Origin: Oceanospirillales bacterium
GTDB lineage: Bacteria; Pseudomonadota; Gammaproteobacteria; Pseudomonadales; Balneatricaceae
DNA length: 64,000 bases
Assembly (NCBI GenBank): GCA_018223185.1
Contig: JAAEYW010000008.1
Coordinates: 1-64,000, forward strand
Reading direction: 5' to 3'
The position numbers and the translations under genes are program-made. The notes beneath the pieces were generated by a model. The model saw only the letters and a list, made by a program, of their open reading frames with translations. It did not search any database and was not told the DNA's origin. This document shows, in pieces, positions 25,726 to 40,351 of this stretch. The stretch's first letter is position 1. Each line of letters begins with the position of its first letter.

Positions 25726-27063
25726 ATGCAAGTATCCGTAGAAACCACTACTGGTCTTGAGCGTCAGCTGACTGTTGTAGTACCTGCTGACCGTGTAGAC
25801 GGCGACGTAGCTAAGCGTGTTCAGCAGACCGCCCGTACTGTTCGACTGGACGGTTTCCGTCCTGGTAAAGTGCCGGTGACAGTGGTTAAAAAACGCTACG
25901 GCCAGGGCATCCGTCAGGAAGTGATCGGTGAAGTTGTACAGCAGAGCTTCTACGAAGCTATCCAGCAGGAAAACCTGACGCCTGCAGGCGGCCCTAATGT
26001 CGAGTTTAAAAACGACAAAGAGGGTGAGGATTTCTCTTACACCGCAACTTTTGAAGTATACCCAGAGATCGCACTGGCTGACTTCTCCAGCGTTGAGATT
26101 GTTAAGAACTCCGCTGAGGTTAAAGATGCTGACCTGGATCAGATGATTGAAACTCTGCAGAAGCAGCAGGCTGCTTTTGAAGAAGCCGATAAAGCTGCCG
26201 CTGAAGGCGATCAGCTGAACATCGACTTCGAAGGTTTCGTTGATGGTGAGGCGTTTGATGGTGGCACGGCTACCGGTATGGATCTGGTGCTGGGTTCCAA
26301 CACAATGATCCCGGGCTTTGAAGCTCAGCTGGAAGGCGCTAAAGCCGGTGATGAGAAAGAGGTTAACGTCACTTTCCCTGAGGAATATCACGCTGAAAAC
26401 CTGAAAGGTAAAGATGCTAAGTTCAATGTTAAAGTGAACAAGGTATCTGCTCAGGTATTACCAGAACTGAACGAAGAGTTTTTCGCTAAGTTCGGTATCG
26501 AAGAGAAGACCGTTGATAGCTTCAAAGTTGAAGTTCGCAAAAACATGGAGCGTGAGCTGACTCAGGCTCTTAAATCCAAGCTGAAAGAAGCAGTATTCGG
26601 CAAGCTGGTAGAGATTAACGCAATTGACGTGCCTGCGGCTCTGATTGATGGCGAGATCGACGCAATGCGTCGTCAGGCTATCCAGCAGTTTGGTGGTGCA
26701 AACGCTAATATCGATCCTAATATGCTGCCTAAAGAGATGTTCTCTGAACAGGCTGAAAAGCGTGTGAAAGTAGGCCTGCTGGTTGCTGAGGTTATTAAAG
26801 CGAACGAGCTGAAAGTAGACGAAGATCGTGTACGCACGACTGTTGAAGAACTGGCTGCCACTTATCAGGAGCCTCAGGAAGTTATCGACTGGTACTACAG
26901 TAACCAGGAGATGCTGAACCAGATTAAGAATCTTGTTCTGGAAGATCAGGTTATGGATCAGCTGCTGAGTTCTGCTAAGGTAAGCGAAACTGAGTTGAGC
27001 TATGAAGACGCAATCAAGCCTGCAGCACCTGCACCTGCAGCTGAAGAATCAGAAGAGGCATAA
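25726..27063 (+). CDS. tig: Trigger factor (ribosome-bound chaperone, peptidyl-prolyl isomerase)
   Basis: A 445-residue trigger factor, which binds ribosomal protein L23 at the tunnel exit and shelters nascent chains. The N-terminal ribosome-binding domain has the loop signature GFRPGKVP, the middle FKBP-type domain covers roughly residues 155-245 (GDQLNIDFEGFVDGEAFDGG ... GFEAQLEGAKAGDEKEV), and a helical C-terminal domain follows with an Ala/Pro/Glu-rich end. ATG 25726 has GAGGA five bases upstream; upstream in-frame codons from 25591 are not family-like. The order tRNAs-tig-clpP-clpX is conserved in many gammaproteobacteria. Confidence 0.97.
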   Translation: MQVSVETTTGLERQLTVVVPADRVDGDVAKRVQQTARTVRLDGFRPGKVPVTVVKKRYGQGIRQEVIGEVVQQSFYEAIQQENLTPAGGPNVEFKNDKEGEDFSYTATFEVYPEIALADFSSVEIVKNSAEVKDADLDQMIETLQKQQAAFEEADKAAAEGDQLNIDFEGFVDGEAFDGGTATGMDLVLGSNTMIPGFEAQLEGAKAGDEKEVNVTFPEEYHAENLKGKDAKFNVKVNKVSAQVLPELNEEFFAKFGIEEKTVDSFKVEVRKNMERELTQALKSKLKEAVFGKLVEINAIDVPAALIDGEIDAMRRQAIQQFGGANANIDPNMLPKEMFSEQAEKRVKVGLLVAEVIKANELKVDEDRVRTTVEELAATYQEPQEVIDWYYSNQEMLNQIKNLVLEDQVMDQLLSSAKVSETELSYEDAIKPAAPAPAAEESEEA

Positions 27064-27094
27064 TTGCCCTTTGCCTTAATTGCGTTTATAAAAG

Positions 27095-27131
27095 AACGGC
27101 TGTCGGCTTAGGTCGGCCGCCGTTTTTTTTT
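27095..27131 (+). terminator. Intrinsic terminator after tig
   Basis: Outer arms AACGGC/GCCGTT enclosing a GC-rich interior, followed by nine T residues. Confidence 0.85.
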
Positions 27132-27177
27132 CTGGACGTGTCGTAAACACGTTGTTTAGGATTTAGGAGAGAATTCT

Positions 27178-27798
27178 ATGTCGGATTTTTATAATGGCCC
27201 TACAGTAATTACTAGCAGTGGTCTGGTACCCATGGTTGTTGAACAAACAGCGCGTGGTGAGCGTTCTTACGACATCTACTCTCGATTGCTGAAAGAGCGG
27301 GTTATTTTCATGGTTGGCCAGGTAGAAGATCATATGGCTAACCTGGTTGTTGCCCAGTTACTGTTTCTTGAGTCGGAAAACCCGGACAAAGATATTCACC
27401 TGTACATAAACTCACCCGGTGGTTCGGTTACTGCCGGACTGTCTATCTATGACACCATGCAGTTTATCAAGCCTGATGTCAGCACTATGTGTATTGGTCA
27501 GGCGGCCAGCATGGGCGCATTGTTGCTAACCGGCGGTGCCGAGGGTAAACGTTACTGTCTGCCGCATTCCCGGATGATGATTCACCAGCCTTTGGGCGGC
27601 TATCAGGGGCAGGCAACCGATATCGAGATCCACACTCAGGAAATTCTGACGATTCGTGATAAATTGAACACAATTATGTCTCACCACACGGGTCAGGATA
27701 TGGCGACTATCAGCAAAGATACCGACCGGGATAATTTTATGTCTCCTGAGCAGGCAGTTGCTTACGGTCTGATCGATCAGGTGATGAGCAGCCGTTAA
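27178..27798 (+). CDS. clpP: ATP-dependent Clp protease proteolytic subunit
   Basis: A 206-residue ClpP, the serine protease barrel of the ClpXP and ClpAP machines. The catalytic triad is visible: Ser111 in [11 protein letters not shown], His136 in MMIHQPLGG and Asp185 in TDRDNF. The N-terminal propeptide is short. The oxyanion-side motif INSPGGSV is intact. A strong ribosome site (TTAGGAGAG) precedes the ATG. It has its unfoldase gene clpX 166 bases downstream. Confidence 0.98.
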
Positions 27799-27846
27799 TA
27801 CTGCTTTGACTGAGTGTGGCTAAGGGTTCTGTCGTGTCTGTACAGA

Positions 27847-27897
27847 GCGCACCGCACTTGTCGTTTGATTCAAGCGGTGCGCATTATCCGCTATAAT
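27847..27897 (+). promoter_or_regulatory. clpP-clpX intergenic hairpin and probable clpX promoter
   Basis: A hairpin with nine-base perfect arms (GCGCACCGC at 27847-27855, GCGGTGCGC at 27874-27882) is followed without a T-run by TATAAT at 27892-27897, with a weak -35 (TTCAAG) 17 bases before it. The arrangement suggests partial termination after clpP plus a separate clpX promoter. Confidence 0.5.
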
Positions 27898-27964
27898 GTG
27901 CTTGATATGAGAAAGAAATCAGAGGTCCGGGCCGGGCATGGCCGGGACAAACAGAGGTAGTTGA

Positions 27965-29260
27965 ATGTCCGACGATATCAACGGTAAAGGAGGAAGTGAT
28001 GACAGCAAACTGCTGTATTGCTCTTTCTGTGGTAAAAGCCAGGACGAAGTTAAAAAACTGATTGCAGGCCCGTCTGTCTTTATCTGCGATGAATGTGTTG
28101 ATCTGTGTAATGACATCATCAAAGAAGAGATTCAGGACGCGGAAGAGACCCTGGAAGAGGGTGATCGCCTGCCGACTCCGGCTGAAATTAAAGAGAATCT
28201 GGATGCGTACGTTATTGGTCAGGAACGGGCCAAAAAAGTACTGTCTGTTGCGGTATATAACCACTATAAGCGACTCCGTTTTCAGCAGAGTGCCGGTGAT
28301 ACCGATGTTGAGCTGGGCAAGAGTAACATTCTGTTGATCGGCCCGACCGGTAGCGGTAAAACCCTGCTGGCTCAGACCCTGGCAAGAATGCTCAATGTTC
28401 CGTTTACCATTGCGGATGCAACCACGCTGACCGAAGCCGGTTATGTGGGTGAAGATGTTGAGAACATCATTCAGAAGCTGTTGCAGAAGTGTGATTACGA
28501 TGTAGAGAAAGCCCAGCTGGGTATTGTTTACATTGATGAGATCGATAAGATCTCCCGTAAGTCAGATAACCCGTCTATCACGCGAGACGTGAGTGGTGAA
28601 GGTGTGCAGCAGGCTTTGCTGAAACTGATCGAGGGTACTGTTGCTTCAGTTCCGCCTCAGGGTGGCCGTAAGCATCCACAGCAGGAATTTTTGCAGGTTG
28701 ATACCTCCAATATTCTGTTTATCTGTGGTGGTGCATTCGCCGGTCTTGATCAGGTGATCAAGCATCGTAGCGAGAAAAGCTCTATCGGTTTCAACGCGGC
28801 TGTTATCAGCAAGGAAGAGACCCGTAAAATCACCGACGTTCTGGCAGACCTTGAGTCTGAGGACCTGGTTAAATATGGTCTGATTCCTGAGTTTGTTGGC
28901 CGTCTGCCGATGATCGCTACGCTGACTGAACTGGATGAAGACGCTCTGATTCAGATCCTGACTGAGCCAAAGAACTCGCTGACCAAGCAATATTCAGCGC
29001 TGTTCGGTATGGAAGGGGCTGAGCTGGACTTCCGTGAGGATGCGCTTAAAGCGGTTGCTACCAAGGCGCTTGAAAGAAAGACAGGTGCCCGTGGTCTGCG
29101 CTCCATTCTGGAAGAGAATCTGCTGGATATTATGTACAGCCTGCCGTCTCAGAAGGGGATTTCCAAGGTTGTTATCGATGAGGGTGTGATCAATGGTGAT
29201 TCTGATCCAATCCTTATCTATGAAAATCTGGACGCTCCGAAAGCGGCGGCTGAAGACTGA
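27965..29260 (+). CDS. clpX: ATP-dependent Clp protease ATP-binding subunit
   Basis: A 431-residue AAA+ unfoldase that feeds substrates to ClpP. The N-terminal zinc-binding domain has four cysteines at 19, 22, 41 and 44 (C-S-F-C ... C-D-E-C). The Walker A motif GPTGSGKT lies at 126-133, Walker B is in [10 protein letters not shown], and a pore-loop GYVGEDVE follows the first strand region. The GARGLRSI sensor-2 motif and C-terminal AAA lid are present. Length matches the family. It ends in a strong terminator. Confidence 0.98.
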
Positions 29261-29282
29261 TATATATCAATGATATGTAAAG

Positions 29283-29304
29283 ACGCGCCCACGGCGCGTT
29301 TTTT
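29283..29304 (+). terminator. Intrinsic terminator after clpX
   Basis: Seven-base arms ACGCGCC/GGCGCGT, three-base loop, then a run of T residues. Confidence 0.92.
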
Positions 29305-29430
29305 GTATTCTGATCAAACAATCCTCTGTTAACTGATCCATTTGTTAACAATTTGGATGCACACACTAGAGCTTAGGCGGGTGAGCGTTTAGAATGAGCC
29401 CCTGCCTTAATGTAAGAAAGAGATTTTCCA

Positions 29431-30153
29431 ATGGGAAGAAAGTTTGAAGTACGTAAGGCTTCCATGGCTAAGACTCAGGGAGCTAAATCCAAGGTATATG
29501 CCAAGTACGGCAAAGAGATCTATGTTGTTGCCAAAAACGGTGGTGTCGACCCAGAGGGTAACCTGTCGCTGCGTCGTCTCATCGAAAAAGCCAAGAAAGA
29601 TCAGGTACCAGCCCACGTTATTGAAAAAGCGATCGACAAGGCCGCAGGCGGCGGTGGTGAGGATTTCCTGCCAACACGTTATGAGGGCTTTGGACCCGGT
29701 GGCTGTATGGTTATCGCCGATTGCCTGACCGATAACAATAACCGTACTTTCGGTGATGTCCGGGTGGCTTTCAATAAAGGTAAAGCAAAGCTGGGCGGTC
29801 AGGGCACTGTTGCACATATGTTTGATCATCGTGCCGTGTTTGTTTTCCCCCATGACGATGAGGATGAAATTCTTGAGTTGCTGATGGAAGCGGATGTCGA
29901 TGTTGCGGAGATCGAGAGTGAAGATGGCAACATTACCGTCTACGCGCCGAATACAGACTTCTTCAAGGCTAAAACCGCGCTACATGAAGCGTATCCGGAT
30001 CTTGAGGTTGAGGTAGAAGAGATTACCTTCATCCCTCAAACCTACGTCGAACTGGCCGGTGAAGATTTGGAGCAGTTTGAGAAGTTTATGGAACTGCTGA
30101 ATGATGTGGAAGATGTCCAGGATATCTACCACAACGTTGAGATGCCTGATTGA
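29431..30153 (+). CDS. YebC/PmpR-family protein, YeeN-like
   Basis: A 240-residue member of the YebC/PmpR family (TACO1-related), whose members act as translation factors for stalling sequences or as DNA-binding regulators. It looks closer to the YeeN branch than to YebC proper: it starts MGRKFEV rather than with the usual AGHSKW motif, and contains [41 protein letters not shown] and a C-terminal VQDIYHNVE end. AGAGA precedes the ATG. It is the last gene before the accessory island. The precise role in this organism is not known. Confidence 0.9.
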
Positions 30154-30181
30154 TTTCAGGTTTTACTTCGTTAGATAAAAG

Positions 30182-30208
30182 GCCGGTGCGGAAGCATCGG
30201 CTTTTTTT
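30182..30208 (+). terminator. Intrinsic terminator after the YebC-family gene
   Basis: Eight-base arms GCCGGTGC/GCATCGGC (one G-T wobble) followed by seven T residues. This marks the left edge of conserved chromosome. Confidence 0.85.
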
Positions 30209-30230
30209 ATGGGGCTAAGAAAAGAATAAG

Positions 30231-30300
30231 TGGCTAGATCGCGGCTACGCCGCTGGCTAGTGGTTAGAACGTCGCTGCGCGACTGGCTAGAAAAGGCAAA
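30231..30300. repeat. REP-like double hairpin, left of the DRT island
   Basis: Two small perfect hairpins, GCGGC-TAC-GCCGC (30241-30253) and GTCGC-TGC-GCGAC (30271-30283), embedded in GGCTAG/CTAG-containing sequence. The reverse complement matches the layout of the elements at 34406 and 35356 (CTTTTCTAGC, hairpin, AACCACT/AGCCACT, second hairpin). It lies in inverted orientation relative to those and thus brackets the island. Confidence 0.75.
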
Positions 30301-30362
30301 GCGCGTGACTGGCTCATAGTGCGAAAAAACAATAAAACTTTGAGTATGAAGGTAACTCAAGC

Positions 30363-30690
30363 TGTACAGGTTTTGGGATGCAGTCGATACCTGTGAGAAA
30401 ATGTTTAATGCAATGTCTTTAGATATAAATAATGAATTTAGCTACAAATAAGGAGGAGGACCTCGGATGTCTCATAAGGTGTGTGCGCCGTAGCGCCGCT
30501 GTAATATCAACAACAATTCTAACTTCACCTGTACATCATCTACTGTCTTAGGACATTAGCTGACCATCATGTGCTATTAGAGGCCATGGATACGTAGGAA
30601 GAATAGGGTTGATACTCAAGTAGTAACCTTATTCTGCGACATAAATGCCTGAAATGAGACTGTCCGAGTTCCAAGTGATATACCTTAAGC
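30363..30690 (-). ncRNA. Candidate DRT3-associated non-coding RNA
   Basis: About 330 bases downstream of drt3b on the same strand, with no coding capacity but clear structure. Reading along the minus strand there are: a hairpin with GAATA..GGTT / AACC..TATTC arms (30634-30601); a hairpin TGTC-CTAA-GACA with flanking pairs (30559-30540); a GCGC-TACG-GCGC hairpin with a stable tetraloop (about 30498-30487); and directly after it the tract CACACAC (30485-30479). TGTACAGGT (30535-30527) can pair perfectly with ACCTGTACA (30371-30363), closing the CA tract in a large loop. DRT type 3 systems are reported to use an ncRNA, and I recall an ACACAC template in it. The boundaries and the link are inference. 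Confidence 0.5.
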
Positions 30691-30692
30691 AT

Positions 30693-32714
30693 CTAATATT
30701 CGAAAATCAACTCTTTTTTTTCTAAAGTATTCCATAAATCCAAATAGTTCCAAGAAATAAACCATTGTTCGTCTGATAAGGCAGATAGTAATTCTTGTAA
30801 ATTGGATTCTGAAATATCTTTTTTATATAGGATTTTGCTGAATGTTTTTGTCCAGTTTTTCTTGTCTTTTGAGTCAATATAAGGGCATGACATTGAATCG
30901 AGGAAAAGTAAACATAGCTTTGTGTCTTTAGCTATATTGTTCAAATTTTTCAATCTTTGGTTGATTAATTTTATAGCTTCTTTCTTGATGCTCTCATAGT
31001 TGGGTTCATCACCTATGTAATACAAGAGAGAAGTTAACTGAAAGTAGTCTGAGTTTTCTTCCTGCTGTAGGAAGTCTGAAGATCTTTTTTTTATGTTTTC
31101 TAAATTAAAAATATCTTTTACTTGTTTTTGGGTTAATAGATAGTCGCTACCCATAACTCTTGAAATGAAGAGTAAGTTTGCTAATTCTACAGGAAAGTAT
31201 GTGTCATCTTTAGATAATAGTTGCTGGCATTTTCCGCTTTCAAAGAACTCTCTTATTAAATTGTTTATCATTAATTTAATTGTCTTTTCTTCGTTTTTAA
31301 AATGTTTTTCAAAAAAAACGAAAGATGTGTAGCATAACGTGCTTAATTTAAAGCTGTTTGCAAATGAAGGAGTAACGCTAAATAAGTGGAAAGCTATTCT
31401 TAGTAAAATAAGAAATGCGTCTCTGTAGGTTATAAATGCGTAAGATGTAATTTCTTTAGGAGTAGTTGAAGATAGCTCAATGGATTTGTTTGCGAGTGCA
31501 GAAATAATATAACCTGTCATTACATTATAAGCATCACTATCTTGATAGCTAGATGACTTGATACTATTAACGAACTTATTAATAACGAGGTGTTTGTTTC
31601 TTATGATGTCTTTTTTTGAACTTTTAACGAACGTGTTTATTTTATCTTCATCAACTACTCTATAAAATAATAAATCATAAAGATTTGTTAAGGCCGTTGA
31701 TGTATCAAGCTTTGCTCTTGTAATGCCTGTAACAAATGGTTTGGTTTGTTTCTTTGTTTTGGATTTATTTATATATAACTTGAATTTTCTTAAGCTGTCT
31801 TCTATTGCATTATAAACTTTCTGAGCGATTATGTTTGATGAAGCAAATATAAAGTAATCATCTACGTATCTTCTAACTTCATAGTCAACGCCGATGATGG
31901 TGGATTTTTTTTCTAAAGATTGCACTGATTCTTTATCAACAGCTTGAAGTATTACTTCAGCAAATATTCGACTAACTTCATTTCCAATTATTATTCCATT
32001 TGTTTCATTGAAGTTTGATCGTTGCATCAGCTTGTCAAATGCATCACCAAAAGCATCATTAGTAATATGTTTCTTTGCGTTATGTTTTCGTTTAGTTGCC
32101 CATGATATAGAGTGAGTGTAAATGCTATCGAAGCATTTTGAGATATCGATGGACCAAAAGTCTGTGAATTTTTCTTCTAGTTTGAAAAACTCTTCATCTT
32201 CAAAAAATTGATATAGTTTCGTATAGCGGTCGTATGAATAGTAAGAGGTTGCATGTCGAAATTTTTTCTCGTCTGATATTCTTTGTGCACTACTTCCTTT
32301 AGGCGCCTTAAGGTGGCCACGTCGATTTTTAAGGTAATACGATGATGCGATTTTTGCAGGCCTTCTAATGGAAAATGGGCTTGCATCACAATAATATAGT
32401 ATTTGCGGAGAGTATTTCTTATAGAACTCAATGAAATTTACTTGACTTGATGGGTGAATTATTCCCATATGTCTATAAGAGGTTTCATCTTTTCGTATTT
32501 TGTATCGCATTGGCATTGTGTCAGGCTCAATGCTCAATTTTTCAAATAAGAACCCTATGCAGTCTTGAATGCATTTTTTCTTTTTAGATTTGTTTTTTAT
32601 GTTTTGATATAGCCAGTTGTTTGTGAATATTATGGGTGTATCAACTGGAGAGGTTTCAGAAACTAATATTCTATAAAAATCGCTTAGTTTTATGCTTTGT
32701 TTTTTTATAGCCAT
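30693..32714 (-). CDS. drt3b: Reverse transcriptase Drt3b, anti-phage DRT type 3
   Basis: A 673-residue reverse transcriptase of the unknown-group type. The polymerase core covers roughly residues 110-330: motif A DFWSIDISKCFDSIY with the catalytic Asp at about 190, motif B-like NGIIIGNEVSRIFAE, and motif C RRYVDDYFIFAS with YVDD at 283-286. All metal-binding aspartates are present, so it should be active. The C-terminal ~340 residues are an alpha-helical extension without known motifs. The length, tail and pairing with a second, shorter RT upstream match drt3b (UG8) of DRT3. It overlaps drt3a by ten bases (ATGGCTATAA). The gene is strongly A+T-rich relative to flanking housekeeping genes, indicating transfer. 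A retron or group II intron is unlikely. Confidence 0.86.
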   Translation of the reverse strand: MAIKKQSIKLSDFYRILVSETSPVDTPIIFTNNWLYQNIKNKSKKKKCIQDCIGFLFEKLSIEPDTMPMRYKIRKDETSYRHMGIIHPSSQVNFIEFYKKYSPQILYYCDASPFSIRRPAKIASSYYLKNRRGHLKAPKGSSAQRISDEKKFRHATSYYSYDRYTKLYQFFEDEEFFKLEEKFTDFWSIDISKCFDSIYTHSISWATKRKHNAKKHITNDAFGDAFDKLMQRSNFNETNGIIIGNEVSRIFAEVILQAVDKESVQSLEKKSTIIGVDYEVRRYVDDYFIFASSNIIAQKVYNAIEDSLRKFKLYINKSKTKKQTKPFVTGITRAKLDTSTALTNLYDLLFYRVVDEDKINTFVKSSKKDIIRNKHLVINKFVNSIKSSSYQDSDAYNVMTGYIISALANKSIELSSTTPKEITSYAFITYRDAFLILLRIAFHLFSVTPSFANSFKLSTLCYTSFVFFEKHFKNEEKTIKLMINNLIREFFESGKCQQLLSKDDTYFPVELANLLFISRVMGSDYLLTQKQVKDIFNLENIKKRSSDFLQQEENSDYFQLTSLLYYIGDEPNYESIKKEAIKLINQRLKNLNNIAKDTKLCLLFLDSMSCPYIDSKDKKNWTKTFSKILYKKDISESNLQELLSALSDEQWFISWNYLDLWNTLEKKELIFEY

Positions 32715-33973
32715 GCTTTTTTGACTTCCTGAAAATCCATGTAAGAAAATTTATGATGTGTGCGTTCTTCAAATCCTTTTTTAAAGCTAAAGTGTGAAAG
32801 CTCTCTTCTGCTTGATATGGGTATGTTTGTTTGTATTCTTTTCGAAAGGTTGCTGTTTTTGTTAAATAATAAGCTTTTTATTAATCTATCTAAGGATTCG
32901 AGCTGTTTATTTTGGTTTATGTTAGGGAAGTTGTAGTATATTCCAGATTTAATGCTTGGTGAACTTATTGGGGTTGCATTAACTAAATTATAGTTTCCAG
33001 TTATAAATTTTAACCGTTTGATTAATAGTTCGTAATCTAGAGTTGTTTTACTAGAATTGATGTAATGTACAAAGCTTTTTATAAGTCGTTGCTTTATCTT
33101 TTCTGATTTGCTTTGGGAAATATCTATGTCTACTCGTCGCCTTGCAATATCTAAAATCTTATCGGTACAACAAAGGCTGTTGTATAGAGTATAATCATAT
33201 CCAAGATAGTCGAAAGTCTTTAGTGGAATAGGCTTTTCCTCAAGCTTTTTTGATTTGCTTATATTCCCAAAATGTCTCTTATTTCCGATTTTATGCAGTT
33301 CTAAATTTGGTGGTAGGTTTTCTGAAATTAATGTAAAAATATTTGAGTTTGTTAATGAAGAGGAGGTTATTACTACGATGTCATCTACAAATCTAGAATA
33401 AAAGAAAACCTCGTCGTTTTCGGTTATTTTTTTGTCTACTTCTGTTAATGTTAATTCTGATAATACTGCGCTTATACTAAGGCCTCTAGGTAGTCCTTGA
33501 GAATTTATTTTCTCTAGCTCCTTAAAAAAAAGATCTAAAAGGGTAGTGCTTTTTTTAGATAGTATTCCGTCTGATTTTATTTTGTTTTTTATCTTTTGTC
33601 TGTCTACGTTTTCATAGAAAGATTTTATATCTAGTCGATGGATGTTATATGAAGATGTTTCTTTTAAAAAAGTTATGAGAGTTGAGGTTATAGACTCTCT
33701 GCTTTTTACCCTGATGTTATATGCGTCTCTGATATTTTTTGATAGGAGTCGAATTATAAGGTTGTGAGGTATTGTTTTGGGTGCAAAAGCTTTTTTATTA
33801 TTAACAGTTATTTCGGTGATAGAATTTATAAAAACTTTATTGTCATCAACAAGATCAGCAGCCTCTTGTGAAACGTTAAGGCATTTCTCGGGAGTGTTTA
33901 ACAGTGGTTGGTTGATAAGGTCTTCATAAGTGATACATTTCCTCAAATTACGAGCTACAAAACTACGTTCCAT
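32705..33973 (-). CDS. drt3a: Reverse transcriptase Drt3a, anti-phage DRT type 3
   Basis: A 422-residue reverse transcriptase, the first gene of the two-RT operon. Motif A is NIHRLDIKSFYENVD (Asp about 115), motif B QGLPRGLSISAVLSE (159-173), and motif C FYSRFVDDIVVIT with FVDD at 195-198; a GNKRHFGN region and a thumb-like C-terminus follow. The sequence pattern and partner fit drt3a (UG3). In DRT3 both RTs are needed for phage defence together with an ncRNA; my recollection is that one strand of an alternating GT/AC DNA is made from the RNA and the other without a nucleic-acid template. AAAGGGA precedes the ATG and an A+T-rich promoter region lies upstream. Codon use is very A+T-rich. Confidence 0.85.
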   Translation of the reverse strand: MERSFVARNLRKCITYEDLINQPLLNTPEKCLNVSQEAADLVDDNKVFINSITEITVNNKKAFAPKTIPHNLIIRLLSKNIRDAYNIRVKSRESITSTLITFLKETSSYNIHRLDIKSFYENVDRQKIKNKIKSDGILSKKSTTLLDLFFKELEKINSQGLPRGLSISAVLSELTLTEVDKKITENDEVFFYSRFVDDIVVITSSSLTNSNIFTLISENLPPNLELHKIGNKRHFGNISKSKKLEEKPIPLKTFDYLGYDYTLYNSLCCTDKILDIARRRVDIDISQSKSEKIKQRLIKSFVHYINSSKTTLDYELLIKRLKFITGNYNLVNATPISSPSIKSGIYYNFPNINQNKQLESLDRLIKSLLFNKNSNLSKRIQTNIPISSRRELSHFSFKKGFEERTHHKFSYMDFQEVKKAWL

Positions 33974-34047
33974 GTTTATATCCCTTTATATCAACTGTAT
34001 ATGATCAAATTAGTATATAGGTATTTATGGTCGCTTGGAATAATCAG

Positions 34048-34080
34048 AATTAAAGGAGCAGAGCCCTTTTCATAGCTCAT
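34048..34080. repeat. Junction motif, copy 1
   Basis: A stem-loop motif of about 30 bases (AATTAAAGG ... GCCCTTTTCATAGCTC) found three times in this island. This copy separates the DRT3 promoter region from the first lysE fragment. Confidence 0.75.
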
Positions 34081-34145
34081 ACGCCCTATCAAACCGCGCC
34101 AGGTAGAGTGGTTGTATCGGGTTAACAGTCACAGGTAATCACAGT

Positions 34146-34357
34146 GTCACAACTCTGGCAGCCAGAACAATAAGAATCCCTACGGTCAGTCTGTTAACCA
34201 ACTGGCTGCGGTGTTGCAGGGTTTTAGTACCGGCCATGTTAAAGCAGAAACACCATGATGCTGTACCAGAGGCTATCGACCGGCGCCGCAGAGTTGGTCA
34301 TAATCAACTGGTCGGTCATGGTGGCATAGGGATTGACAAAACTGAAACAAAAGAGGG
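34146..34357 (-). pseudogene. LysE-family gene fragment 1 (3' end, degraded)
   Basis: About 210 bases that align without large gaps to the last third of the intact LysE-family gene at 35426-36037. The shared segments include GCAGCCAGAACAAT, AACCAACTGGCTGCGGTGTT-like sequence and CACCATGATGCTGTACCAGA. The copy has many substitutions and at least one single-base deletion, so it is not functional. It breaks off where the homologous sequence reaches AAAAGAGGG, exactly where the next repeat begins. It has the same orientation as the intact gene. Confidence 0.85.
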
Positions 34358-34405
34358 GGCAGATTTATTTCTTTCCCCTTATCTCATCCCAATCCACTGA
34401 ACTAT

Positions 34406-34480
34406 GGCTTTTTCTAGCAAGCGACGAAGTCGCGTCGAGCCACTGCTAGCCGCGTAGCGGCGGTCTGGCTTGCGTTAGAG
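34406..34480. repeat. REP-like double hairpin, copy 2
   Basis: Two perfect hairpins, GCGAC-GAA-GTCGC (34421-34433) and GCCGC-GTA-GCGGC (34449-34461), within a 75-base unit that starts GGCTTTTTCTAGC and ends GCGTTAGAG. Nearly identical to 35356-35430. Confidence 0.88.
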
Positions 34481-34536
34481 AGTCACAACCCGGGCTGCCA
34501 GAACAATGAGAATTCCTCCGGTCAGCCGATTAACCA
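34480..34536 (-). pseudogene. LysE-family gene fragment 2 (last 57 bases)
   Basis: Matches the final 57 bases of the intact LysE gene at 35426 with a single mismatch, then stops abruptly at the next junction motif. Being far less diverged than fragment 1, it is a more recent duplication. Confidence 0.88.
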
Positions 34537-34567
34537 AATTAAAGGGGGCAAGCCCTTTTCATAGCTC
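34537..34567. repeat. Junction motif, copy 2
   Basis: AATTAAAGGG ... AGCCCTTTTCATAGCTC, matching copy 1 at 34048 closely. It lies at the seam between lysE fragment 2 and the cargo LysE-type gene, 20 bases before that gene's start codon. Confidence 0.78.
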
Positions 34568-34586
34568 TTTTTTCGGAGAAAACGAA

Positions 34587-35225
34587 ATGGATTTGAATAA
34601 TATTCTTACCTTCATCGCAGTGGCAACATTACTTGTCGTTTCCCCTGGCCCGAATGGTTTTCTTATTGCTAAAACAGTTCCTTTGTCGGGGCATCGAGCT
34701 GGTTTTGCTAATATTGCGGGCTTTGTCGGAGCTTTCTATGTGCATGGCACTCTGTCAATTTTTGGCATATCCATCCTCTTAGTACAATCAGCGAACGCCT
34801 TTTTCGTTTTTAAAATGCTGGGAGCAGCCTACTTAATTTGGCTAGGTATAAAAGCGCTCAGAAACGCTTTAAGTCAAAGTTCAGCAGAAACTAATGTAGT
34901 TGTAGAGCACCCGAAAAATCCAATTTCATTGAAAAACGCTTTTTATGAAGGATTTTTAACGAACACTCTTAATCCCAAAGTTTCAGTTTTTTATCTTGCT
35001 GCTTTTCCGCAATTTATGCCTGTAGACGGCAGTGCTCTAAGTGCATATTCGCTTGTAACTGCGCATTCATTAGTCAATGTCGTATGGTTTTCAGCTATGG
35101 TGTTCACTTTAACCAAAGTAAAAAGCGCAACACAGCACCCTAAATTTAAAGTATGGCTAAACTCAATAACGGGTGTTGTATTTATTGGCTTTGGCGCAAA
35201 ATTAGCCTTGGCGAAAAACAGCTAG
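34587..35225 (+). CDS. LysE-family translocator (island cargo)
   Basis: A 212-residue inner-membrane exporter of the LysE/RhtB family, which pump out amino acids or related metabolites. It has the family N-terminus with SPGPNGFLIAKT, six hydrophobic segments, and the mid-protein NTLNPKVSVFYLAAFPQF motif. ATG 34587 has GGAG eight bases upstream. It differs clearly from the intact LysE-type protein at 35426 and is A+T-richer than the chromosome, consistent with recent arrival. It sits between two copies of a 187-bp direct repeat. The substrate is unknown. Confidence 0.88.
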   Translation: MDLNNILTFIAVATLLVVSPGPNGFLIAKTVPLSGHRAGFANIAGFVGAFYVHGTLSIFGISILLVQSANAFFVFKMLGAAYLIWLGIKALRNALSQSSAETNVVVEHPKNPISLKNAFYEGFLTNTLNPKVSVFYLAAFPQFMPVDGSALSAYSLVTAHSLVNVVWFSAMVFTLTKVKSATQHPKFKVWLNSITGVVFIGFGAKLALAKNS

Positions 35226-35236
35226 CAAACCAAGGC

Positions 35237-35265
35237 AACGGGACAATAACATGCAGGCTCCCGTT
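35237..35265 (+). terminator. Hairpin after the cargo LysE gene
   Basis: Seven-base arms AACGGGA/TCCCGTT with a 15-base loop, 12 bases after the stop codon; the following T content is weak, so termination is only probable. Confidence 0.5.
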
Positions 35266-35270
35266 ACTTC

Positions 35271-35295
35271 ATTAAAGGGTCAAAGCCCTTTTCAT
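35271..35295. repeat. Junction motif, copy 3
   Basis: ATTAAAGGG ... AGCCCTTTTCAT, a shorter match to copies 1 and 2, placed at the right end of the cargo LysE gene just before the second 187-bp repeat. Confidence 0.7.
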
Positions 35296-35300
35296 CACAA

Positions 35301-35487
35301 AAAAGAGGACAGATTTATTTCTTTCCCCTTATCTCATCCCAACCCATGGAGACATGGCTTTTTCTAGCAAGCGACGAAGTCGCGTCGAGCCACTCGCTAG
35401 CCGCGTAGCGGCGGTCTGGCTTGCGTTAGAGAGTCACAACCCGGGCTGCCAGAACAATGAGAATCCCTCCGGTCAGCCGATTAACCA
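35301..35487. repeat. 187-bp direct repeat, copy 2
   Basis: The partner of 34350-34536. Its right part is the 3' end of the intact LysE-family gene, so this copy probably marks the original chromosomal site. The leading AGAGGACAGATTTATTTC segment resembles sequence found beside REP-associated tyrosine transposase genes in other bacteria; that link is from memory. Confidence 0.9.
35356..35430. repeat. REP-like double hairpin, copy 3
   Basis: The same 75-base unit as at 34406, with hairpins GCGAC-GAA-GTCGC and GCCGC-GTA-GCGGC. Its right end coincides with the stop codon of the intact LysE gene (35426-35428). Confidence 0.88.
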
Positions 35488-36037
35488 ACTGACTGCGGTG
35501 TTGCAGGGTTTTCAGTACCGGCCCGTGGGAAAGCAGAAACACCATGATGCTGTACCAGAGGCCGTCGATAAGTGCTGCGGTCGCGGTCATAATCAGCTGG
35601 TCTGACAAGGTTGCATCCGGGCTGACAAATTGTGAAAAGAGGGCGATGAAGAAGATTGCCAGCTTTGGATTGAGGAGTGAGATGGCTGCCCCTTCAATAC
35701 CCGCTGTTATGACAGACACGCTTTTGCCTGTGTTTACCCTGAACGCGGACGCTTTTCCGGCGCGGATCGCTTTAAGCCCTATCCATGCAAGGTAGCCTGC
35801 GCCCAGCCAGGTTATGGCCTTGAAAGCCGCTTCCGATTCTGCCACCAGTATGGCTAAGCCTGAAATCGTTGCAAAGGCCCACAGGCCAACTCCCGCGGCA
35901 TGAAACCAGCTGGCTGCCAGACCATGGCTTCGGGTATTGGTAACGGTGTGCTTAAGCACCACGGCTAAACTGGGGCCGGGTGACATCGCTCCCAGACAGC
36001 AGACGGCAAGCAGAGAGAGCCAGGCGGTAAAGGTCAT
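35426..36037 (-). CDS. LysE-family translocator (intact, host copy)
   Basis: A 203-residue LysE/RhtB-type exporter with the SPGPSLAVVLKHT motif near the N-terminus, six membrane segments and SLLNPKLAIFFIALFSQF in the middle. The start (MTFTAWLSL) is in the usual place. This gene's 3' end is duplicated twice to its left (34146-34357 and 34480-34536), so its tail has been used as an insertion or recombination site. The stop codon itself overlaps the REP-like element. The exported compound is unknown; amino-acid or homoserine-lactone-type substrates are typical of the family. Confidence 0.9.
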   Translation of the reverse strand: MTFTAWLSLLAVCCLGAMSPGPSLAVVLKHTVTNTRSHGLAASWFHAAGVGLWAFATISGLAILVAESEAAFKAITWLGAGYLAWIGLKAIRAGKASAFRVNTGKSVSVITAGIEGAAISLLNPKLAIFFIALFSQFVSPDATLSDQLIMTATAALIDGLWYSIMVFLLSHGPVLKTLQHRSQLVNRLTGGILIVLAARVVTL

Positions 36038-36187
36038 AACGTATCCATGTACATAAACAGTCAGTTAACGGGGTGATCTCAGGCCAGCGTGATCGGGAAA
36101 ATCCGGCTAAGCTGAAGGATGATTATATTGCAGGGGGCTGAGGAGTCATAGTCGGACATGTTGTCATAGGCGATTGGCGGGGCTTAT

Positions 36188-36241
36188 TATCAGAGCTTCT
36201 TATTAGAACTTAGCTATCAGAGTTTCTTATTAGAACTTAGC
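36188..36241. repeat. 27-bp tandem repeat, two copies
   Basis: TATCAGAG-C/T-TTCTTATTAG-AACTTAGC repeated twice head to tail with one mismatch, followed by a partial third start. It lies upstream of the CPXCG gene in a 320-base region (36038-36356) that otherwise holds nothing I can identify. Confidence 0.92.
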
Positions 36242-36356
36242 TATCTATCAGCTCTGACTGTCAGAGCCTGTTAGTCCGAATGCGTAGCCTTCTGAACACT
36301 GTTGCTGGCATTAAAAATGTCTGCAGCAATACACTTTAGTGAGTGAGGTGCCGATC

Positions 36357-36548
36357 ATGCAAAGCCTGGAAACTATTTCACGAAACTGCCCCTATTGTGG
36401 CGAGCCGATTGAGCTGTTAGTGGACTGTACCGCTGGCGATCAGCAGTATTTTGAAGATTGTCAGGTGTGCTGTAAGCCGATCTCGGTTGAGCTGAGAGTT
36501 GACGGTGCTGAGCCGGTTGTCTGTTTAAGAGATGAAAATGAGGCATAA
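36357..36548 (+). CDS. CPXCG motif-containing cysteine-rich small protein
   Basis: A 63-residue protein with two cysteine pairs, CPYCG near residue 11 and CQVCCK near residue 37, the layout of the CPXCG family of small zinc-ribbon-like proteins. ATG 36357 gives the family's usual length; an earlier GTG at 36339 is possible. It probably binds zinc. The role is not known. A shared bidirectional terminator separates it from purC. Confidence 0.85.
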   Translation: MQSLETISRNCPYCGEPIELLVDCTAGDQQYFEDCQVCCKPISVELRVDGAEPVVCLRDENEA

Positions 36549-36550
36549 AA

Positions 36551-36580
36551 AAACGCCGTATAGGGTTATACGGCGTTTTT
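36551..36580. terminator. Bidirectional terminator between the CPXCG gene and purC
   Basis: Eleven-base perfect arms AACGCCGTATA/TATACGGCGTT with a short loop, flanked by an A-run and a T-run. Confidence 0.94.
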
Positions 36581-36605
36581 ACGAAACTGATGAGCCGGGC
36601 TGTCG

Positions 36606-37709
36606 TTAGTCGATCAGTCCGTAATCGTTACGCAGGATCTCGATAATTTCTGCTTTCGGATTATCAGAAAGGGTTAGCTTCTCACCGATAATTTTTTCAG
36701 CAATACCGACATAGGTGTCAGATACTTTCTGCAGCAGGGCCGCTGGCAGGGCGTTGTCTTTTGCCAGTGCGTAACGCTCTTCCATGCGATCTTTATTGAT
36801 CAGAATGTCGGGGTCAGGGAAGTAGTTCAGCAGTTCCTGACGGAAGACCTCTTTCGAGTTTTCGATCACTTTGCCTTCGCGGTAAGAGGGGCCATCCCAG
36901 ATACGGGATGAATCCGGTGTACCGACTTCGTCCATATAGATAAGCTTTTCATTGCCAGATGCATCAGTGACATAACCAAATTCGAATTTGGTATCGACAA
37001 ACACCTGATCAATTTTTTCAAGTTCTGCACTGATCACGTCAAAACCCTCTTTGAGGAGTTTTTCGTATACAGCGATATCGTCTTTACTGCGGAAGTGGAA
37101 CGCTTCGTGATTATTGATGATGTCATCACGGGTGATATTCACATCGTCAACTTCAGGTACACCGGGAATGCCTTTGAGGATTCCTTTGGTTGACGGGGTG
37201 ATCAGCAGTTCAGGTAGTTTCTGGTCTTTCTGCAGATCATCGGCAATCTGAATGCCACAGAATTCACGTTCACCTTTGGCATAGGCACGCCACATAGAAC
37301 CCGTGATGTACTGACGGCAGATCGCTTCAATCATAACCGGTTTAGCTTTCTGAACGATCCAGACAAACGGATGTGGGATATCCAGAATATGGCTGTCAGC
37401 CAGGCCGTGTTCACGGAACAGTTTGAACCAGTGATTGGAGATGGCGTTCAGAGCGGCACCTTTACCGGGTACGCCGTTCATACCGCCTTCGCCATGCCAG
37501 ATGCATTCGAACGCCGAAATGCGATCACTGATTACCATGATTGCCAGTGGCGCATCTTCAGCGACATCATAACCTTTTTCATTGATCAGGCGGCGACTGT
37601 CGGCTTCGGTAAGCCAGTAAACGGAACGTACTTTACCACTGTGTACCGGCAGGTCGGTACGGATCGGCAGATCATTGTTTACTGCCAACACCTTTTCAGC
37701 AAGACTCAT
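36606..37709 (-). CDS. purC: Phosphoribosylaminoimidazole-succinocarboxamide synthase
   Basis: A 367-residue SAICAR synthetase, the ligase joining CAIR and aspartate in de novo purine synthesis. It is the long form found in Vibrio and relatives rather than the 237-residue E. coli form. Motifs include SGKVRSVYW (nucleotide loop), [26 protein letters not shown], and [29 protein letters not shown] in the catalytic centre. The ATG is unambiguous. It is transcribed alone, facing the CPXCG gene. Confidence 0.96.
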
Positions 37710-38078
37710 TGCATACTGTCCTGTATTTCTAAATTCGATTAATAATAACGTTCCAGAGTGTCAGCGTTTGCCTGATTACGGCAGTGCAGTTCTGACAGAT
37801 GATCAAATGAAAATTCGTTCAATATATCCGCCTGATTCTGGAACAGGGATATTACACAGATTTGTAATATCCCGCTACATTTGACCGGAGCGTTTTTCTC
37901 TCCTGTTTTTTCTCCCGTTGCTCTCGAAAAAAGGCCCGGATCGTCATTTTTCATTGCAACTATGTGATAAGCAGCAATACGGCGAAAACCGGTTTTTTCT
38001 TATATGCTTAAGGGTGGCTGGGTAGTATGTAATTCATTCATGTTCCTCTATCAAAATAACAATAGCTGGAGGCCGCCA
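37710..38078. promoter_or_regulatory. Divergent promoter region of purC and the SDR gene
   Basis: About 370 bases with promoters for both flanking genes. A segment GCAAACGCTG on the minus strand at about 37764-37773 weakly resembles half of a PurR operator, but the match is too poor to call. No small gene is evident. Confidence 0.35.
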
Positions 38079-38831
38079 TTGGATATTCAAAAAATTGCGC
38101 TGGTTACCGGTTCCGGTCGTGGGATCGGTGCAGCAACCGCACTAACGCTCGGACGGTTGGGGTATGCCGTCTGCGTTAACTACCGGAACAACCGGCGAGC
38201 CGCCGAAGCGGTGGTCGATCAGCTGCATAGCGAAGGGGTTAACGCTATCGCTGTTGCCGCCGATGTGTCACAGGAGAAGGAGGTATACGAACTTTTTCAT
38301 CGGGTGGATCACGATCTGGGTCGGATTACTGCACTGGTTAATAATGCCGGTATTCTGATGCCGCAGTGCAGACTGGATGAGATGGATGCGCAAAGGATCA
38401 ACCATCTGCTAATCAGCAATATAACCGGTTATTTTCTCTGTTGTCGCGAGGCGGTGAAGCGTATGTCTGCCCGTCATGGAGGTGACGGCGGGGGGATTGT
38501 AAATGTCTCCTCCGTTGCAGCACGCACCGGGTCGCCGGGGGAGTACATTGATTATGCGGCCACCAAAGGTGCGATAGATACGCTGACACGGGGGCTGGCT
38601 TCAGAAGTTGCGGCTGAAGGCATCCGGGTGAACGCAGTTCGTCCGGGATTTATTTATACGGACATGCATGCCTCTGGCGGTGAACCTAACCGGATTGAAC
38701 GGTTGAAAAGTTCTATTCCCATGCGTCGGGGTGGTAAGCCGGAAGAGGTCGCTGAGGCGATTGCCTGGCTGTTGTCGGAGGCGGCTTCTTATACGACCGG
38801 AAGCTTTATTGATCTGGCCGGGGGGCGTTAA
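38079..38831 (+). CDS. Short-chain dehydrogenase/reductase (SDR, glucose-1-dehydrogenase-like)
   Basis: A 250-residue classical SDR oxidoreductase. It has the NAD(P) motif TGSGRGIGAA, the NNAG motif in ALVNNAGILMP, and the catalytic Ser-Tyr-Lys set (NVSSVAARTG, then YIDYAATKGAI). NYRNNRRAAE at the second strand suggests NADP(H) preference. I chose the TTG at 38079 because GGAGG lies six bases upstream and it gives the standard length; a longer ATG frame from 38004 adds an odd leader. The MFS transporter begins about 100 bases later in the same direction. The substrate is unknown. Confidence 0.88.
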   Translation: MDIQKIALVTGSGRGIGAATALTLGRLGYAVCVNYRNNRRAAEAVVDQLHSEGVNAIAVAADVSQEKEVYELFHRVDHDLGRITALVNNAGILMPQCRLDEMDAQRINHLLISNITGYFLCCREAVKRMSARHGGDGGGIVNVSSVAARTGSPGEYIDYAATKGAIDTLTRGLASEVAAEGIRVNAVRPGFIYTDMHASGGEPNRIERLKSSIPMRRGGKPEEVAEAIAWLLSEAASYTTGSFIDLAGGR

Positions 38832-38935
38832 CCGGATGAACCGGTACCCGGGAGTTGAATTCGCGCTGCTCTGAATTTAATGAATATATAAATTATCACC
38901 TGCTATACTTCTTTGCCTTACGTAAAGGTGTCTTT

Positions 38936-40351
38936 GTGATCGCATATTCAGATAATTCGTTCTATCAGGAAAATCCCCGGGCCCGCTGGTTCGTACTCAT
39001 CAGTATCTGTATCGCTCTGTTTCTGGTGCCGATGTCGTTGTCTTCGGTCAATATGGCTCTGCCGGCTATTGCGGATGCATTGCATGCCGATGCTGTGCTG
39101 CTCAGCTGGATACCCACTGCCACTTTGTGGGGGAGTATTGTGCTTCTGTTGCCAGCGGGCCGGGTGGCCGACGCCGTTGGCAGGAAACCGATCTATCTCA
39201 TCGGCGTGTTGGGCTTCTCGCTCGCATCACTGGTTATTTTTGCGGTTAATTCTGTTGAGTTCTTACTGCTGGTGCGGGTGCTGCAGGGATTATTCAGCAG
39301 TCTGGTATTCGCAACCGCGATGGCAATTATTGCCGCAGTCTTCAGTGGGACTAACCGCGGCACCGCACTCGGTCTGACCGCAACCTCTGTGTATCTTGGA
39401 CTCACCTGTGGTCCTCTTTTCGGTGGCTGGCTGACCGAACATCTTGGCTGGCGCAGTGTGTTCTGGGGGCCGGTGATCCTGGCTCTGGTTGCTCTGGTGC
39501 TGGCATTTGTCTATATCAGGAATGATCGCAACGCTGAAAGAAAGTCTGATCCGCTGGACTGGTTCGGGTCTTTGCTGTTTATTGCCCTGGCCACACTACT
39601 GTTGTTTGGTTTATCGGGCCTGCCAAGCCTCTATAACTGGCTGATGCTGATAGCGGGTATAGCGCTGGTGTTTGTGTTTGTGCGGCAACAGAATCGTTGT
39701 GAGTTTCCACTGGTGCGCTTCAGTGTGCTGGCGGCGAACAGGGTGATGAACCGTTCTCTGCTGGCCAGTTTTCTGATGTATGCGGCGCACTATCCTGTAC
39801 TGTTTCTGCTGAGTCTTTATCTGCAATATCTGCAAGGCCTGTCTCCCAGCGAAACGGGGCAGATGATTCTGTTACAAGCGCTCATTATGGCTTGTCTGGC
39901 ACCGCTTGCCGGACGTTTGTCTGACCGTTTTGAGCCCCGCCTGATTGCCACGATTGGGTGTTTGTTCTTCAGTGCGGGCTTTGCTGTACTGGTATTTCTT
40001 CAGGCCGATAGCTCACTCAACCATGTCATTGTTGCACTGGTGCTGCTTGGATTGGGCTTTGGTCTGTTCTCGACCCCGAATAATAATGCGGCGCTGGGTT
40101 CAGTCGCCACAGAACGGCTGAGTATTGCCTCCGCGTTGCTGAATCTGGCGCGTACCAGTGGCAATATGTTCAGTATGGCGATCATTATGCTGTTGATGAG
40201 TGTTTTGCTGGGCAGTGAGCAGATCAGGCCAGAGCGCTATCCGGATCTTCTCGTGGTGGTGAAGTTAGGTTTTGTCAGTGCCTGTGGCTACAGTTTTATG
40301 GCTGCCTGGTTCTCTTATAGCCGCGGCAGGGTCAGCCGTGATGTGACTTAA
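38936..40351 (+). CDS. MFS transporter, 14-helix DHA2-like drug exporter
   Basis: A 471-residue major-facilitator protein with about fourteen hydrophobic segments, as in the EmrB/QacA (DHA2) group. Motif A is [16 protein letters not shown] in the loop after helix 2, and motif C-like [21 protein letters not shown] lies in helix 5-6. I prefer the GTG at 38936 (AAAGG seven bases upstream); the frame is open from an ATG at 38855, which adds 27 polar, unconserved residues. It overlaps the convergent ppsR by four bases. The substrate is unknown. Confidence 0.85.

Follow-up and report, generated by a model that had tools for sequence, protein, structure and literature searches.

The first 64,000 nucleotides (nt) of contig JAAEYW010000008.1 from the Oceanospirillales bacterium assembly GCA_018223185.1, hereafter the window, carry an operon coding for two reverse transcriptases (RTs), Drt3a and Drt3b, followed downstream by a predicted non-coding RNA (ncRNA). 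Judged from sequence, these three parts very probably make up a complete and working DRT3 anti-phage system. The locus is an ordinary DRT3 in kind, apparently complete, and belongs to a system type that is already known. Its interest comes from a natural aspartate at the residue of Drt3b predicted to select dATP, termed here the A-gate, and from the record of the expected product that is kept in the RNA. The parts of the system are, from the 5' end of the operon:

32705..33973, minus strand: drt3a, 422 residues, RNA-templated reverse transcriptase with FVDD active site (PADLOC, NCBIfam NF041747 and PDB matches)
30693..32714, minus strand: drt3b, 673 residues, YVDD active site and terminal Tyr673 (PADLOC, NCBIfam NF041748 and PDB matches)
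30458..30672, minus strand: predicted core of the DRT3 ncRNA, both arms of the closing stem and all that lies between them (about 215 nt)
30654..30672, minus strand: closing stem, 5' arm (fold and shuffle test)
30485..30500, minus strand: small hairpin adjoining the template on its 5' side, GCGC-UACG-GCGC when the whole region is folded
30479..30484, minus strand: ACACAC, predicted template of Drt3a (sequence and recurrence across loci)
30458..30475, minus strand: closing stem, 3' arm, 3 nt from the template (fold and shuffle test)

The two reverse transcriptases and the predicted downstream RNA

The assignment of both proteins to the Drt3a and Drt3b families is confirmed by profile searches. 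In PADLOC the product of 32705..33973 matches Drt3a with 386.5 bits (E 4.5e-116; next family 106.5 bits) and that of 30693..32714 matches Drt3b with 644.9 bits (E 4.1e-194; next family 139.2 bits). The NCBIfam equivalogs NF041747 (Drt3a) and NF041748 (Drt3b) give 351 and 617.4 bits for cut-offs of 200 and 350, respectively. The top matches among solved structures are chains of the same PDB entry, 9z6y_A for Drt3a (E 2.4e-51) and 9z6y_H for Drt3b (E 1.1e-109), nearly full length for both proteins. Drt3a corresponds to UG3 and Drt3b to UG8, an equivalence given in the legend of Figure 1A of PMC13174585. By homology, the drt3b product is predicted to be a protein-primed, protein-templated reverse transcriptase.

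The original prediction, made from the sequence alone, had described two overlapping A+T-rich RT genes with intact catalytic motifs and proposed that they are a DRT3 system. All of this holds. The open reading frames (ORFs) exist as described and overlap by 10 nt, the VDD active sites are intact in both (FVDD at residues 195-198 of Drt3a, YVDD at 283-286 of Drt3b), the pair has 31.1% G+C vs 48.5% for the window, and drt3a precedes drt3b in one operon, the gene order of DRT3. A single copy of the operon is found in the source genome. The system had also been called complete on the strength of the two RTs, which are indeed there, while its third part was overlooked: the lower portion of the interval 30231..33973 assigned to it (30231-30692) lies outside both genes and includes the predicted ncRNA. 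The DRT3 claim is stronger than the original prediction could know, because this predicted RNA is also there.

For comparison, 101 related loci were set beside the window, namely the best 80 of 352 from genome contigs and 21 of 23 from viral contigs. Two of the 103 loci collected (L117 and L118) were left out, as their matches cover part of the RT only. Dropping L093, L109, L113 and L115, which have frame breaks or stops and all carry ACACAC downstream, gave 98 Drt3b sequences including that of the window. The counts below thus describe the nearer part of the Drt3b family. They still include near-copies, and not every locus is an independent case. Of 102 loci, 97 encode Drt3a upstream of Drt3b (three of them as a piece of at most 300 residues), and the other five have less than 400 nt of upstream sequence. 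At positions conserved in at least 90% of the sequences, the window departs from the family at 2 of 61 in Drt3b (M83, Y159; 98 sequences) and at 1 of 29 in Drt3a (I324; 94 sequences). Phenylalanine rather than tyrosine precedes VDD in 28 of the 94 aligned Drt3a. The interrupted Drt3b frames of L109 (one stop) and L115 (32 stops), both from viral contigs, are probably broken copies.

In the E. coli system, an ncRNA with the template 5'-ACACAC-3' sits downstream of drt3b (PMC13174585). The template of the window lies 208 nt past the drt3b stop, and 93 of the 98 loci have ACACAC in the 400 nt that follow drt3b, vs 334 of 4800 shuffled downstream stretches (the shuffles in this and in the stem, hairpin and shifted-control tests preserve base content, not dinucleotides). 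The fold of 301 nt (30392-30692, minus strand) has a z of -2.27, with 3 of 100 shuffles equally stable. Within it a long-range stem, formed by 30672-30654 and 30475-30458, closes the template region with -24.9 kcal/mol, a strength reached by none of 100 shuffles. A stem of this kind is significant (equalled by no more than 5 of 100 shuffles) in 62 of the 77 loci whose template lies at least 60 nt from the stop; in controls with its 3' side shifted by 40 or 80 nt, significance is reached in only 8/77 and 4/76, respectively. The same threshold is reached by 63 of the 85 testable regions among 88 non-identical template regions. The arms vary widely in sequence from locus to locus, so it seems that pairing rather than sequence is kept. 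An alignment of three downstream regions with MAFFT put the template of L017 out of register and was rejected; for this reason the stem was tested locus by locus. A hairpin 5' of the template is significant by energy in 35 of 86 loci, the window not being among them, and a GCAC-UUCG-GUGC hairpin is possible at the matching place in L016.

ACACAC was not found in five loci. Two of these, L059 and L065, are cut short by the end of their contigs, and the others are L027, L045 and L081. The last has only CACAC downstream of drt3b. L027 and L045, both from Snodgrassella, have intact gate residues (Glu, Arg) and lack the motif within 400 nt after drt3b, and in L027 it is absent from the whole coding strand of the locus; their RNA may have moved or decayed, or another template may be used. 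In 11 further loci (L070, L074, L083-L086, L094, L095, L111, L112 and L116) the template lies only 24-44 nt past the drt3b stop and no significant stem was found, either downstream of the stop or reaching into drt3b. Two of the three regions left out of the 85-region test belong to these loci, as does L111. Short complementary stretches flank their templates by eye, not significantly vs shuffles, and perhaps they carry a miniature ncRNA.

Proposed mechanism and the residues of the protein template

The enzymology, trigger and outcome proposed for the window system are those of E. coli DRT3, transferred by homology. There, Drt3a synthesizes (dTdG)n from ACACAC, while Drt3b builds (dCdA)n from its C-terminal tyrosine using amino acids as template; RecBCD limits the product, inhibition of RecBCD by phage Gam leads to its accumulation and to a growth stop, and GreA is required for defence (PMC13174585). 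In the window system, Drt3a would repeatedly copy the ACACAC of the ncRNA into a (dTdG)n strand. Drt3b would prime on its own Tyr673 and add alternating C and A without a nucleic-acid template to give (dCdA)n, with C selected by Arg249 and A by an acidic residue, which is Glu in E. coli and Asp25 here. The two strands would pair into GT/AC duplex DNA that RecBCD normally degrades. A phage disabling RecBCD would let the duplex accumulate, leading to growth arrest (abortive infection). The source genome has adjacent recC, recB and recD genes on contig C23, whose products score above cut-off, which is a matter of consistency with the mechanism only. GreA is also found above cut-off.

Residues were matched by aligning the window Drt3b to that of L106 (667 residues). 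From this length, and from the agreement of its residues 22, 71, 182, 183, 187, 241, 276-278 and 666 with the published ones, L106 was equated with the E. coli enzyme of the preprint. The window enzyme keeps R81 (R71 in L106), D190 (D182), F195 (F187), R249 (R241) and the YVDD motif at 283-286 (276-279). The codons of two further key residues are:

30696..30698, minus strand: codon of the C-terminal residue of Drt3b, Tyr673, which aligns with Tyr666, the priming residue in E. coli
32640..32642, minus strand: codon of Drt3b Asp25, aligned with the dATP-gate Glu22 of the E. coli enzyme

The priming tyrosine is present in 96 of the 98 sequences, the other two being gapped, and the C-gate arginine in all 98. 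The A-gate is acidic in the window, yet it is Asp25 rather than Glu. Among the 93 sequences readable at this position, including the window, 70 have Glu and 23 Asp (5 of the 98 are gapped). The RNA template hardly follows this variation, as ACACAC is kept in 23/23 Asp-gated and 65/70 Glu-gated loci, with two of the other five cut off. Replacement of Glu by Asp at the gate is reported for a substantial fraction of homologs (PMC13174585). Asp25 is most likely a working gate, since the Asp-gated loci all keep ACACAC, the E. coli E22D mutant is partly active and Asp is common in homologs. A quick tree of 88 Drt3b sequences, for which the columns of the gate and of position 245 were masked and which has SH-aLRT support only, requires six changes between Glu and Asp at the gate, five of them forced by starred branches. 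It holds several long branches, among them those of L089 and L096, both Asp-gated.

Alternative readings and the genomic setting

Several observations weigh against a complete and working DRT3. The E22D mutant of E. coli Drt3b achieved only partial poly-(dCdA) synthesis (PMC13174585). The closing stem is not significant in 15 of the 77 loci, nor in the E. coli-type reference L106, where 36 of 100 shuffles are as strong. Folded by itself, the hairpin segment next to the template of the window favours a different pairing, and its stability is matched by 26 of 200 shuffles, which is not significant. An Rfam scan of 30100-34600 gave no match up to E 1. Finally, predicted membrane proteins have been noted alongside DRT3 (PMC12632851) and may be a fourth part of it; a divergent LysE-family gene (34506-35225) beside the operon of the window is at most a candidate partner. 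Among 837 neighbouring ORFs of at least 80 residues within 2.5 kb of 97 loci, no third protein recurs widely: the largest cluster spans 9 loci and the others among the 14 shown at most 3, none of these clusters contains an ORF of the window, and no membrane protein recurs among them. By eye, the cluster of 9 loci presumably codes for a phage-type integrase.

A first alternative is that the pair is of DRT3 type with an Asp-gated Drt3b that makes a different product, for instance poorly alternating DNA, and works unlike E. coli DRT3. Asp25 in place of Glu would fit this idea, as would the residue at position 245, which precedes the C-gate Arg249 by four. It is Asn in the window, and it is other than Pro in 19 of 23 Asp-gated vs 3 of 70 Glu-gated sequences. 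However, the link between gate and position 245 is not significant once kinship is counted (5 independent pairs, median p 1). The retention of ACACAC in every Asp-gated locus makes best sense if the partner strand is still a CA repeat, and E. coli E22D does yield some poly-(dCdA) (PMC13174585). An altered product is thus improbable.

The surroundings of the operon bear on a second alternative. Its downstream side is adjoined by a YebC/TACO1-family gene (29431-30153); 27965-29260, which we take by eye from the ORF list to be clpX, lies one gene beyond, so that clpX is nearby as originally predicted without being the direct neighbour. Drt3b has no match in 16 other genomes of the genus, two of which are only 75-78% complete. 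In the seven of these genomes compared at the site, the sequence resembles the window across yebC and the similarity breaks off at 30149-30301. It resumes at a LysE-family gene (35426-36037) in four of them, and does not do so within the stretch compared in the other three. The gap holds different genes among the genus genomes, one of them in G009 and G016 being a tyrosine integrase (Pfam on the G009 copy). The operon therefore occupies a variable slot, and its acquisition by transfer is probable, given that genus mates have no Drt3b match and differ in their genes between yebC and the LysE gene.

Such a slot would also suit a relic, a DRT3 whose sequence is intact although the system is silent or does not function in this host. 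One copy in the genome and the lack of a match in the rest of the genus point to frequent gain or loss. Decay would nevertheless be expected to break at least one part, whereas the frames are open, the key residues intact and both RNA template and closing stem kept, which makes a relic very improbable. That two retron or group II intron type RT genes are adjacent by chance is hardly conceivable and is refuted at family level by the PADLOC and NCBIfam scores: Pfam gives both proteins only the generic RVT_1 domain, but TIGR04416 reaches 45.1 and 52.1 bits for a cut-off of 300, far below the Drt3a and Drt3b models named as the test in the original prediction, and the pair stays together in 97 of 102 loci, the remainder being cut off.

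Plasmids also carry Drt3b homologues, with at least 80% of the query covered in 7 of 202 matching records. Nine phage records match Drt3b by tblastn, none over 80% of the query, and megablast of 29400-35300 found no match in a collection of 20,395 E. coli records. Inspection by eye of the ORFs in 26000-40000, a region that received no dedicated search, showed no integrase. In L141 and L144, two genomes of the genus, the slot after yebC is taken up by a tyrosine integrase with small genes behind it, and the products of two L141 genes start with similar peptides (MAGTVSPLLR, MAGTAFPLLR), an arrangement that resembles a cassette array. The L141 integrase has partial matches only in the genome of the window, the best with 56% over 70 residues.

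On the far side of the operon, the 3' end of the LysE-family gene at 35426-36037 (minus strand) is repeated twice to its left (78-99% identity). A 98-nt repeat (91%) is found too, and the repeats flank the second LysE-family gene, 34506-35225 (plus strand). Their positions are:

34143-34340, 34347-34444, 34445-34537 and 35297-35394: repeats near the LysE-family genes

The pattern suggests that insertions or duplications have occurred more than once at the 3' end of the gene at 35426-36037. A TGGCTAGAAAAGGC-like repeat occurs at 30284-30297, 34407-34420 and 35357-35370, its orientation on one side of the operon being the reverse of that on the other; three matches in the window compare with 0.54 expected, and 4 of 100 shuffles have as many.

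Relation to known systems and the natural Asp gate

The E. coli DRT3 (UG3 and UG8 RTs with an ncRNA; PMC13174585; work of Deng et al. 2026, via PMC13314766) and the window locus share the order drt3a-drt3b-ncRNA, both catalytic motifs, the equivalents of R71, R241 and Y666, and ACACAC in the downstream RNA. They differ in Asp25 for Glu22, in the FVDD of the window Drt3a and in spacing, the template of the E. coli-type L106 lying 128 nt past the stop vs 208 in the window; the two Drt3b are 33% identical. PDB 9z6y likewise has Glu at the residue aligned with the A-gate. The nearest Drt3b relatives among the loci compared, which group with the window on the tree and are also nearest for Drt3a, come from Marinobacterium halophilum (L016, NZ_PYGI01000012.1; 61% identity) and a Methylophaga metagenome-assembled genome (L017; 54%). 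Both have the Asp gate, Asn at 245, ACACAC and the closing stem as in the window; they belong to other genera (NCBI places M. halophilum in Oceanospirillaceae) and have their templates 180 and 108 nt past the stop, respectively. DRT10 is not known to be paired with a protein-templated RT. It copies a short ncRNA template into tandem repeats, the mode assigned to Drt3a in PMC13174585. The window locus is not described in the available parts of the DRT3 literature (PMC13174585, PMC13314766, PMC13213688).

A tentative idea, which we regard as possible rather than probable, is that the window Drt3b belongs to a lineage with a rebuilt protein template, combining the Asp A-gate with Asn for Pro245. 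In the family as sampled, no fewer than five exchanges of Glu and Asp would have taken place at the gate, with ACACAC retained as the RNA template throughout. There might then be several amino-acid ways to spell the CA repeat, with second-site changes that the E22D mutant lacks.

In Drt3b, amino acids spell a DNA sequence. A natural and apparently complete Asp-gated system would be a ready test of how variable such a protein template can be, because the RNA template of the same operon states what the product must pair with. As the gate varies and the RNA template hardly does, the prediction of that product is a clean one.

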